Positions 4,744 through 7,072 of a stretch of 8,553 nt of DNA are shown piece after piece. The notes beneath the pieces are model-generated. The model made no database searches and was not told the origin of the DNA. It saw nothing but the letters and a program-made list of their open reading frames with translations. Every line of letters begins with the position of its first letter. The stretch's first letter is position 1. The position numbers and the translations under genes are program-made. Source of the DNA: Deltaproteobacteria bacterium (lineage in GTDB: Bacteria; Desulfobacterota; Desulfobacteria; Desulfobacterales; JAFDCJ01); the NCBI GenBank assembly GCA_024277475.1, contig JAJRVC010000098.1:1-8553 (forward strand). The letters are read 5' to 3'.

Positions 4744-4959
4744 ATGAGCAAGTGTATACATGTCTTACTGTTTTTAACCGTAATTTTCGCAGCCTCTAAC
4801 CTGGCAAGCGTGTTGCCGGAGGCAGTAGCGGAGCGGTCCGGCGCTTTTTCAGGGACCTGGATTGCCAGGAGCGTCTCGCCAAAGGCCTTGTGGCGATGCC
4901 TGCCGATGATGAGAGGCAGCAGCGGGAACTGCCGCCGGGCGCTAAAACTTCCGTGCTGA
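4744..4959 (+). CDS. Short ORF with signal-peptide-like start running out of frame into the dcuA remnant
   Basis: 71 codons with a good ribosome binding site (AGGAG, 4732-4736, seven bases before the ATG). The first ~30 residues (MSKCIHVLLFLTVIFAASNL, then ASVLPEAVA) look like a secretion signal or membrane anchor. From about residue 33 the frame overlaps the dcuA remnant in a different frame and reads nonsense-like, arginine-rich sequence. The likely history is the 5' end of an unrelated exported-protein gene joined to the dcuA fragment near 4840. Whether a peptide is made is unknown. I recognise no family. Confidence 0.35.
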   Translation: MSKCIHVLLFLTVIFAASNLASVLPEAVAERSGAFSGTWIARSVSPKALWRCLPMMRGSSGNCRRALKLPC

Positions 4960-5315
4960 TCTTTTTTATCGCGATTATTGCCGTGGTCTGCTATGCCATG
5001 GCGATCAGCAGCACCGTGGGACTGATCAAAGATCCGGTCCTCAAGCGCGATGCGGCTATCATGACATTCATGCTGGCCGCCGCCGCTGCCATCGCCCTGT
5101 TTTGTAAGATTGACTGCAATAAGGTACTTAACGCCGCCACCTTTAAATCCGGTATGAGCGCCTGCGTGTGTGTTCTCGGGGTAGCCTGGCTCGGCACTAC
5201 CTTCGCATCGGCGCATATAGAAGAAATAAACGTTTTTGCCGGATCTTTGCTCGAGACCCGACCGTGGCTGCTGGCGGTGGTGCTGTTTTTTGCCAGCATG
5301 CTGCTTTATTCCCAA
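4848..5315 (+). pseudogene. dcuA: Internal fragment of anaerobic C4-dicarboxylate antiporter DcuA
   Basis: DcuA exchanges aspartate or fumarate for succinate across the inner membrane during anaerobic growth. About 156 codons match the middle of DcuA. DLDCQERLAKGLV aligns with the cytoplasmic loop (E. coli DPIYRKRLEEGLV). Then come GAKTSV, a membrane segment, LFCKIDCNKVLNAATFKSGM, SACVCVLGVAWLG and PWLLAVVLFFASMLLYSQ. The last block resembles DcuA rather than DcuB. Roughly the first 210 residues and the last ~90 are missing. Upstream of about 4848 the frame loses similarity. At 5313-5315 the conserved YSQ ends and the next bases belong to a different gene in another frame. A GTG at 4890 can start a 175-residue ORF, but it would yield a transporter middle with a foreign tail. 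A non-functional remnant. Confidence 0.85.
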
Positions 5316-5317
5316 CC

Positions 5318-5494
5318 AGTGGTGCTTTCACGCGCCGGGGTGCGGCCGTGTTGCGGATATCGACGGATCAGATTGATGCCTTTCGCGCTGAAAAACCAGG
5401 CCTGTTCTAGCGCATAGTTGCCCGTGTGGCGGCCGGCATCAGTGAGCGGCTCAGGGTGGTTTCTCAAAGTATCGCTCAAATTGAAAGTCCGGTG
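5318..5494 (+). pseudogene. C-terminal part of a cyclic-nucleotide-binding-like domain fused upstream of aspartase
   Basis: The frame reads SGAFTRRGAAVLRIS, TDQIDAFRAEKPGLF, TAG at 5408-5410, then RIVARVAAGISERLRVVSQS. This has the order and character of the end of a Crp-type cyclic-nucleotide-binding domain: a small/basic beta segment with an RxAxV-like core, a V-L-R-I strand, then helices ending in LARRLR-type residues. It continues in the same frame through a short linker (IESPVHLKGEV) into aspartase, so the ancestor was probably a regulatory-domain-aspartase fusion. The beginning of the domain is absent, replaced by dcuA sequence at 5315/5316. The TAG is probably a nonsense mutation of CAG or a similar codon. 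The domain call rests on pattern recognition of about 57 residues. Confidence 0.55.
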
Positions 5495-5512
5495 CACCTA
5501 AAAGGTGAGGTG

Positions 5513-6439
5513 CGCTTTGAACACGATTCGCTTGGCGAACGCGAGATCCCTGAACAGGCCTATTATGGCGTGCAGACACTGCGGGCCATGGAAAATTTTC
5601 CCATTTCCGGTATTTATGTCAAAAATTTCGAGCATCTGATCGAGGGGCTGGCATTTGTGAAAAAAGCCGCTGCACTGGCCAATCATGAGCTGGGTGTGCT
5701 AAATGAAGAAGAAATGAAGGCCATCTGTACCGCCTGTGATGAGCTGCTGGCCGGAAAACTACATGAGCATTTTACCGTTGACATGTTCCAGGGTGGGGCG
5801 GGAACCTCCACCAACATGAACGCCAACGAGGTGATCGCCAACCGGGGGTTGGAAATCATGGGACACAAAAAAGGAGAGTATGAATTTTTGCATCCCAACG
5901 ACCATGTTAATTACTCCCAATCCACCAATGATGCCTACCCGACATCCATTAAACTTGCGGTCCTGCTGTCACTGAAAGATCTGCTAACCGCCATGAAAGA
6001 GCTCAGGGAAGCGCTGGAAACCAAGGCGGAGGAGTTTGCCGATGTATTGAAGATGGGGCGCACTGAAAACCAGGATGCGGTTCCCATGACCCTGGGTCAG
6101 GAATTTTCCACCTATGGCGTTATGATCGACGGCGCCATGGCGGCCCTGGAACGAGCCGGGGAAGAATTTCATGATATCAACATGGGGGCCACTGCCATCG
6201 GAACCGGTCTTAACAGCCCCCCTGGCTATGCTGATCTGGTTACCCAAAAATTGTCGGAAATCAGCTGCTTTGCCCTGCACCGGGCCCGCAATCTGGTGGA
6301 AGCCACCCAGAACGCCGGTTCGTTCGCCCAAATGTCGGCGACCATGAAGCGTGCGGCCGTCCAAATTTCCAAGATCTGCAATGATCTGCGAGGGATCGGC
6401 TTTGGAATTCTGCCGATTTATTTGTTGTTAATAGCCTGA
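5513..6439 (+). pseudogene. aspA: Aspartate ammonia-lyase, 3'-truncated
   Basis: Aspartase converts L-aspartate to fumarate and ammonia. The match begins at RFEHDSLGEREIPEQAYYG and continues through TLRAMENF, QGGAGTSTNMNANEV, HPNDHVNYSQSTNDAYPT, KMGRTENQDAVPMTLGQEF and NMGATAIGTGLN to KICNDLR at about 6391. That is some 293 residues, about 61% of the 478-residue enzyme. It then switches abruptly to GIGFGILPIYLLLIA and stops at 6437-6439. The flexible catalytic loop with GSSIMPAKVNP and its catalytic serine, plus the whole C-terminal domain, are missing, so no active enzyme is possible. A GTG at 5426 opens a 337-codon ORF that includes the tail of the regulatory domain. Codon use and the preserved N-terminal motifs suggest recent loss. 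Confidence 0.92.
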
Positions 6440-6511
6440 AGAGAAAATTGAAGATAGCGAAAATATATCGATACAATTTTTTTACCACAAAATGCACAAA
6501 ATAATTCATAA
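6392..6511. other. AT-rich filler between two gene remnants
   Basis: After the aspartase break the sequence becomes AT-rich. It includes an 8-bp palindrome TATCGATA (6467-6474) and a seven-base T run near 6477-6483, but no convincing stem precedes it. No similarity to aspartase or to the flavoprotein gene is visible. It may be old intergenic DNA captured by the deletion. Confidence 0.4.
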
Positions 6512-6862
6512 GGCCTAAATGGAGAATTCAACCATGCCGCCTTTAATGAATCAATTCAGTCTGTGAAAACCCGTATCGAAAAACTTCTTTCCATCAACGG
6601 CAAACGCACGGTGGATGACATTCACCGGGAACTAGGGCGAATCATGGAAGATAAGGTTGGGTTGGCACGTAGCGAGGCTGGTTTAAAAGAGGCTATTGAA
6701 CAAATCCGCACGGTACGGGACGAGTTCTGGAAAAATGTCAAAGTCGTTGGGCCTGCCAATACTTATCGCCTCAATCTCCAAAAGGCCGGTCGTCTGGCAG
6801 ATTTTCTTGAACTCGGTGAATTGATGACCATCGATGCGCTGGACCGCAAAGAATCCTGCGGA
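6512..6862 (+). pseudogene. frdA: Fumarate reductase/succinate dehydrogenase flavoprotein subunit, internal fragment
   Basis: Flavoprotein subunits reduce fumarate or oxidise succinate at a covalent FAD on the membrane-bound complex. About 117 codons, from GEFNHAAFNES through KTRIEKLLSINGKRTVDD, HRELGRIM, GLARSEAGLKEAI, RDEFWKNVKV and [14 protein letters not shown] to RKESCG, match the C-terminal-domain start of the Bacteroidetes/Desulfobacterota type SdhA/FrdA. The N-terminal FAD-binding part is absent; the frame opens after a stop at 6509-6511 with no start codon. The usual continuation of ESCG (GHFREE) is lost, replaced at 6860-6862 by iron-sulfur-subunit sequence. A GTG at 6563 begins a 116-codon ORF, but its last ~16 residues are out-of-frame readout. 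Frd versus Sdh cannot be separated; frd is preferred from the aspA/dcuA company. Confidence 0.85.
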
Positions 6863-7072
6863 TGCCATTTGCATTGCTGCCCCAGGGGCGACCGGAAGCC
6901 ACCCGGCGGGTAATGGCCATGCTCAGGGAAATGGACAACTGCGGATTCGGCAATTGCACTAACCCATCGCGTATGTGAGAATGCATGCCCCAAAGAAGTG
7001 TCCATTTCTCATATTGCGCGCTTTAACCGGGAGTTTTTGAAAGCAACGCTGTTCGCTAAAGCGGAAAAGTAA
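6862..7072 (+). pseudogene. frdB: Fumarate reductase/succinate dehydrogenase iron-sulfur subunit, C-terminal fragment with a frameshift
   Basis: The frame from 6862 reads [20 protein letters not shown] then [11 protein letters not shown] one-base shift at 6963-6965, apparently an extra C in a CCC run, moves it to [30 protein letters not shown] and a TAA at 7070-7072. Joined, the cysteines read C-T-N-x3-C-x3-C-P, the ligands of the [3Fe-4S] and [4Fe-4S] clusters near the end of FrdB/SdhB (E. coli FrdB Cys204, 210 and 214). About 70 residues remain of a ~240-residue protein. The 5' side is joined directly to frdA, so one deletion removed the end of frdA and most of frdB. That supports an original frdA-frdB order. 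Confidence 0.85.

Follow-up and report, generated by a model that had tools for sequence, protein, structure and literature searches.

Fragments of a dcuA-aspA-frdCAB locus in a Desulfobacterales contig: a probable, recently inactivated pseudo-operon with large deletions

The window analysed here, read whole, is an 8553-base stretch of contig JAJRVC010000098.1 (assembly GCA_024277475.1) from a deltaproteobacterium of the order Desulfobacterales. Its plus strand carries remnants of the genes for a secreted protein (SPP), for DcuA, for an aspartase with a cyclic nucleotide-binding-type (CNB) N-terminal domain (CNB-aspA) and for FrdC, FrdA and FrdB, all colinear with full-length relatives. The original prediction, made from the letters of this DNA, had recognised same-strand fragments of dcuA, aspA, frdA and frdB in that order, and both profile matches and alignment to relatives bear this out; it had missed the start of the SPP gene, the tail of frdC and the start codon of frdA. 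The features are as follows (L numbers denote related loci, G numbers their genomes).

4695-4868, plus strand: upstream region and first 42 codons of the SPP gene; reading start at 4744, residues 1-42 of 169 at 4744-4866; 77% DNA identity to L005 7626-7792.
4865-5314, plus strand: dcuA remnant, residues 199-348 of 434; DNA identity 88% to L003 and 87% to L101; Pfam PF03605 DcuA_DcuB, E 4.5e-44.
5315-6396, plus strand: CNB-aspA remnant, residues 96-458 of 624; 87% DNA identity to L001; NCBIfam NF008909 aspartate ammonia-lyase, E 4.7e-137.
5408-5410, plus strand: in-frame TAG in the CNB part of the aspA remnant, at a codon for Tyr in relatives; nonsense or possibly a pyrrolysine codon.
5426-6439, plus strand: open frame of 337 codons, leading from the aspA remnant in frame into the frdC tail.
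6392-6455, plus strand: last codons of frdC and following bases; coding 6392-6439, stop 6437-6439; identity 91% to L104, 84% to L006 and 77% to L102.
6448-6514, no strand assigned: dispersed repeat with several copies in the relatives' genomes.
About 6521-6536, plus strand: ribosome site and start codon of frdA, ATG at 6534, in a context as in L102.
6531-6872, plus strand: frdA remnant, residues 470-583 of 636; identity 76-79% to L004, L005 and L006, 71% to L102 and 65% to L103.
6868-7072, plus strand: frdB tail, residues 192-257 of 257; 85% identity to L004; stop at 7072; +1 frameshift near 6964.

By DNA alignment the CNB-aspA remnant starts at 5311/5321 and ends at 6390/6396. It covers the end of the CNB domain and roughly two thirds of the lyase part. 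The regulatory domain first proposed on aspA is of the cNMP_binding type (PF00027). The frdA remnant matches the Pfam flavoprotein C-terminus family PF02910 (1.5e-23) and NCBIfam NF005749 (1.9e-37), while the frdB tail matches the iron-sulfur subunit family NF005746 in two frames (1.4e-8 and 1.1e-5). Among the limits proposed earlier, the end of dcuA moves by one base (5315 to 5314) and that of aspA (about 6391) falls within the aligned range, whereas those of frdA (6512-6862) and the start of frdB (6862) had to be replaced by 6531-6872 and 6868, respectively.

Full-length counterparts of this locus were found by scanning genome contigs with the aspA frame of the window (80 loci kept of 115 confirmed, with gene order listed for L001-L040). 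The nearest aspA loci belong to Desulfobacterales and related deltaproteobacterial metagenome-assembled genomes, so the enterobacterial aspA-dcuA linkage invoked originally is not the applicable comparison. In L005 (CP070694) and L018 the order on one strand is SPP-dcuA-CNB_aspA-frdC-frdA-frdB; L006 has the same order, with genes for a substrate-binding protein and a symporter inserted between aspA and frdC, and L004 has it from aspA onward (aspA-frdC-frdA-frdB). The genes of L005, L006 and L018 are full-length and align to the window, with DNA identities of 77-84% for L005 and L006 and about 70-76% for L018. The descent of the fragments from a single operon, previously an inference, is thus supported by shared order and strand in L005, L018 and L006 and, from aspA on, in L004. 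Internal stops are absent from the operon genes of L004, L006 and L018, whereas L005 frdA has two in-frame TAG codons, one at a Glu codon of L006 and one at a further site; we therefore use L005 as a yardstick of length and not as proof of function. The L001 contig reads aspA-frdC and then ends; upstream of its aspA lies an open frame on the opposite strand, and the dcuA match of that genome is on a different contig. Of the 75 loci with 1 kb or more of sequence upstream of aspA, 45 have a dcuA match no more than 1.5 kb upstream, and 23 have SPP together with dcuA. Downstream, frdA and frdB follow aspA in five of the 57 loci with at least 4 kb of sequence on that side, and over all 80 loci dcuA occurs together with frdA and frdB in L005, L006, L018 and L066. 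The complete dcuA-aspA-frdCAB set is a minority arrangement among the related loci.

Measured from alignment anchors on L005, the window lacks about 5.1 of 7.4 kb in five gaps of about 1.0, 0.65, 1.3, 1.4 and 0.74 kb. As the two extra genes of L006 fall within the third gap, its size measured on that locus would be about 3.7 kb. Four of the gaps run from inside one gene into the following one, removing the end of the first and the start of the second, and the fifth takes the first part of frdA; the earlier statement that each gene had lost its middle is therefore inaccurate, since it is mostly the middles that survive. The window contains no N bases, and all five joins are direct and in operon order:

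J1, 4865-4868, plus strand: SPP to dcuA; CCAG common to both sides (4 bp) in L005, the sole relative aligned on the left side.
J2, 5311-5321, plus strand: from dcuA into CNB-aspA; of 25 relative pairs, 20 have 0-1 bp in common and the five that use L006 for the right side are ambiguous.
J3, 6390-6397, plus strand: from aspA into the tail of frdC; overlap ambiguous, between 0 and 4 bp; frame kept.
J4, 6531-6537, plus strand: from the start of frdA to about residue 470 of the same gene; the two sides have 7 bp in common in L004 and 2 bp in both L005 and L006.
J5, 6868-6872, plus strand: from frdA into frdB; the overlap is 6 bp in L004, 5 bp in L102 and 2 bp in both L005 and L006.

Three of the five junctions thus show microhomology of 4-7 bp in the best-matching relative, and the other two 0-1 bp or an ambiguous match. 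At a random join, 4 bp or more would be shared with a probability of 0.019 per junction in one genome and of 0.056 with the best of four relatives; at the latter rate, three such junctions among five have a chance of 0.0016. The test was post hoc, including the choice of relative, hence the best-of-four control, and we regard the excess as only suggestive of joining at short matches.

Judged from their sequence, the remnants cannot work: the aspartase has lost its SS-loop, DcuA is without its N- and C-terminal parts, and most of FrdA and of FrdB is missing. The aspartase remnant ends at residue 458, ahead of the stretch GSSIMPGKVNP of L005, which corresponds to the SS-loop (aligned with that of 6wng). 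According to PMC11744663, this loop carries the catalytic serine of aspartase. A functional aspartase needs the loop and the window remnant is without it; the 337-codon frame therefore cannot be a working enzyme. Considering hits to dcuA, CNB-aspA, frdA and frdB of at least 55% identity, with coverage limits of 70% for CNB-aspA and 85% for the others, only three of 118 gene copies in the 80 related loci fell below the limits, all three running off a contig end, and none of the 118 was internally shortened. In the window all four genes fall below their limit, none of them at a contig edge, having lost 42-82% of their length.

Smaller lesions are few. The frdB tail carries its +1 frame change, which could be a sequencing error, and the CNB part of aspA has the TAG at 5408. 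The status of this codon depends on whether TAG is sense in the window lineage. A pylS gene scored above the family cut-off in five of the six relatives' genomes (G001-G004 and G006, but not G005), and in all five a tRNA-Pyl with anticodon CTA adjoins it (L128-L132), so that the group is likely to decode pyrrolysine and the TAG at 5408 is not treated as a certain lesion. A TAG at 2146-2148 also ends the thiI-like gene where its L087 relative ends, a ground for dismissing TAG as a sense codon that this evidence overrides; the evidence also makes the pseudo-operon interpretation given below slightly less firm and an artefact slightly more likely.

Both in-frame stops seen in the window, that at 5408-5410 and another at 7286-7288 in a PAS-domain frame, are TAG, as are both in L005 frdA; the genome of L005 (G005) has no pylS above the cut-off despite its two TAG codons. 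The PAS-domain frame occupies window positions 7076-8431, and up to its stop at 8431 profile matches returned families of the PAS type only and no kinase domain; this could be another broken gene or else a protein made up of PAS domains alone.

Substitutions in the remnants show little sign of relaxed selection. Of the changes private to the window, 19 are nonsynonymous and 27 synonymous; the corresponding totals for the relatives are 122 and 159 (Fisher p 0.87), and so few nonsynonymous changes would be unlikely if the remnants were fully neutral (p 3.9e-6). In the aspA piece alone the counts are 12 and 7, a nonsynonymous share of 0.63 compared with 0.29-0.59 in its five relatives, which is a small sign of relaxation. 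Given this purifying-type pattern, the loss must be recent or else not real in the organism.

Taken together, these observations probably reflect a real, recently inactivated pseudo-operon with large deletions. The ancestral operon would have encoded DcuA to transport aspartate, the CNB-domain aspartase to turn it into fumarate and FrdCAB to reduce the fumarate to succinate, and it may have been acquired horizontally from a lineage resembling G001 and G003 before it decayed. Some 5.1 of 7.4 kb, on the L005 measure, would then have been lost in five pieces, each about 0.65-1.4 kb long; the ends were probably joined illegitimately where short sequences match, and the joins are presumed to exist in living cells. 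A homologous full-length operon of the same order and strand exists, and the five gaps, the frameshift near 6964 and the lost SS-loop would abolish function, the TAG at 5408 being uncertain in this respect. The frameshift in the frdB remnant further supports real decay, because joining fragments of intact genes would not create it; the left-hand genes nth, thiI-like and PMT, all unbroken, also speak in its favour. Between repeated deletions and a chimeric assembly, the alternatives raised originally, we favour deletions.

Several observations weigh against this interpretation. Large deletions outnumber small lesions, unlike in described bacterial pseudogenes: according to Kuo and Ochman (2010, PMC2916853), only a small fraction of Salmonella pseudogenes had lost more than 20% of their length, while short indels and premature stops rank with the most frequent kinds of damage. 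The window resembles those Salmonella pseudogenes, as described there, in being recent, little diverged and eroded by deletion, and differs in that four genes have lost 42-82% of their length. The single frdB frameshift may be an error of sequencing, the window lineage may read TAG as pyrrolysine, the microhomology is small or ambiguous at J2 and J3 and amounts to only 2 bp at J4 and J5 in L005 and L006, and the unrelaxed selection fits an artefact equally well. Furthermore, no independent assembly is known to show a junction: the window's DcuA and PAS proteins fall in clusters that each name a single contig (for DcuA one of 8553 bases, with two member sequences in the cluster), all eight G001-family genomes searched for the broken locus were matched with no listed match crossing a junction, and the window's own aspA frame is not among the 120 entries listed.

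The joins may instead have been made outside the cell, either as template-switching chimeras of phi29 multiple displacement amplification (MDA) or by a gap-collapsing assembly, from an operon that is intact in the organism. According to PMC4595205, MDA chimeras join nearby pieces, mostly with overlaps of 5-8 nt and at distances from 0 to more than 5 kb, and J1, J4 and J5 resemble them in overlap and in jumps of up to kilobases. Genes still in use would account for the purifying-type substitutions, the TAG may be no lesion, no second assembly is known to have the joins, and the nearest relative differs between the backbone genes and aspA. Records of close relatives also contain runs of 100 N in or near the operon (L003 5522-5621; L104 4147-4246 and 6869-6968), which may also reflect masking by the collection. 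Yet PMC4595205 describes inverted chimeras as forming more easily, whereas all five joins here are direct and colinear. One remnant has a frameshift of its own, the window is free of N, and in our judgement an assembler that joins by sequence overlap would need more than the 0-7 bp available here. We consider an artefact possible, if rather unlikely.

A special case of the pseudo-operon interpretation would place all the damage in one round of replication or repair, in which the copying strand jumped forward several times at short matches, leaving gaps of equal age (a bacterial event akin to microhomology-mediated break-induced replication, or serial slippage). Five large gaps accompanied by at most two small lesions, selection unrelaxed over about 2.3 kb of remnants and microhomology at three joins would suit such an event. 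Against it, two joins are without clear microhomology, no intermediate or sister strain was found that could date the gaps, and independent deletions in quick succession would look alike; we think a single event doubtful. Equally doubtful is its fuller form, in which an operon gained by horizontal transfer was broken up in a single burst of at least five forward skips that left its pieces in order and nearly free of point mutations, as a bacterial counterpart of multi-jump template switching. As for the remnants having been retained for use, with the 337-codon aspA-frdC frame or the DcuA piece serving as a new protein, that frame is open and the aspA codons look conserved, but recent loss explains the constraint equally, J3 is the only join between coding frames that keeps the frame, and the catalytic loop is gone, all of which makes retention very improbable. 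A functional gene fusion was rejected on the same two grounds of frame and loop. Read as a pseudo-operon, the locus would belong to a familiar kind of decayed operon, though its ratio of large to small lesions is unusual.

The flanking genes indicate differing histories within the contig. The left-hand genes nth, a thiI-like gene and PMT are unbroken and, like the 144-codon frame at 3973-4407, have counterparts of similar length in relatives. For nth, and likewise for the thiI-like gene, the single-gene tree places the window with G006 at a split support of 100 (the nth tree is without G005), whereas the aspA piece groups with G001 (support 95) and dcuA leans to G001 and G003 (72), frdA and frdB being poorly resolved. 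Identities agree, nth being 80% identical to G006 and 70% to G001, and aspA 78% to G006 and 87% to G001. This disagreement, between window positions 342-2128 and 4865-6390, suggests either that the operon was acquired horizontally or that the contig joins two organisms. Judging by eye from the open frames, L003, L005 and L006 seem to differ in what surrounds the locus, which would fit horizontal acquisition.

Dispersed repeats at 1-241, 2222-2412 and 6448-6514 of the window have many matches in the relatives' genomes. No Rfam family reached its gathering score anywhere in the window, these three repeats included, so a structured RNA was rejected, as was insertion at a tRNA, there being none in the window. 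Plasmid origin was also rejected: among the 20 of 179 plasmid matches listed, query coverage was 26-37%, in the aspA part, with none at 80% or above, and the PAS gene had none.

Fusion of an N-terminal cNMP_binding-type domain (PF00027) to aspartase extends to 76 of the 80 loci, including L005 (9608-11482; E 2.4e-9 for its protein), and a remnant of the domain lies at 5315-5490 of the window. The domain has conserved FHESTPR-W and RGLHG stretches, and the canonical phosphate-binding motif PRTA is absent from it. All 46 PDB sequence matches to CNB-aspA (E of 1e-20 or lower) begin at residue 156 or later, leaving the N-terminal part uncovered, and our literature search found no paper linking aspartase or aspartate ammonia-lyase with cyclic nucleotide-binding. 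The SPP of L005 (7665-8174, with the window counterpart at 4744-4866) has 169 residues and a signal peptide, lies ahead of dcuA and matches no Pfam family (best E 0.17). The bin60 record L104 (CP070694) has at 4100-7000 a second partial copy, the tail of AspA followed by frdC and frdA, with 100-N runs; the genes flanking it look unrelated by eye, and there may perhaps be a scaffolding mistake there.

If the joins are not real, this locus is a warning about metagenome contigs. If they are real, it would be a snapshot of an operon dying by kilobase deletions ahead of point decay, an order opposite to the decay by short indels usually described, and the dcuA-aspA-frdCAB operon would be dispensable in at least one Desulfobacterales lineage.

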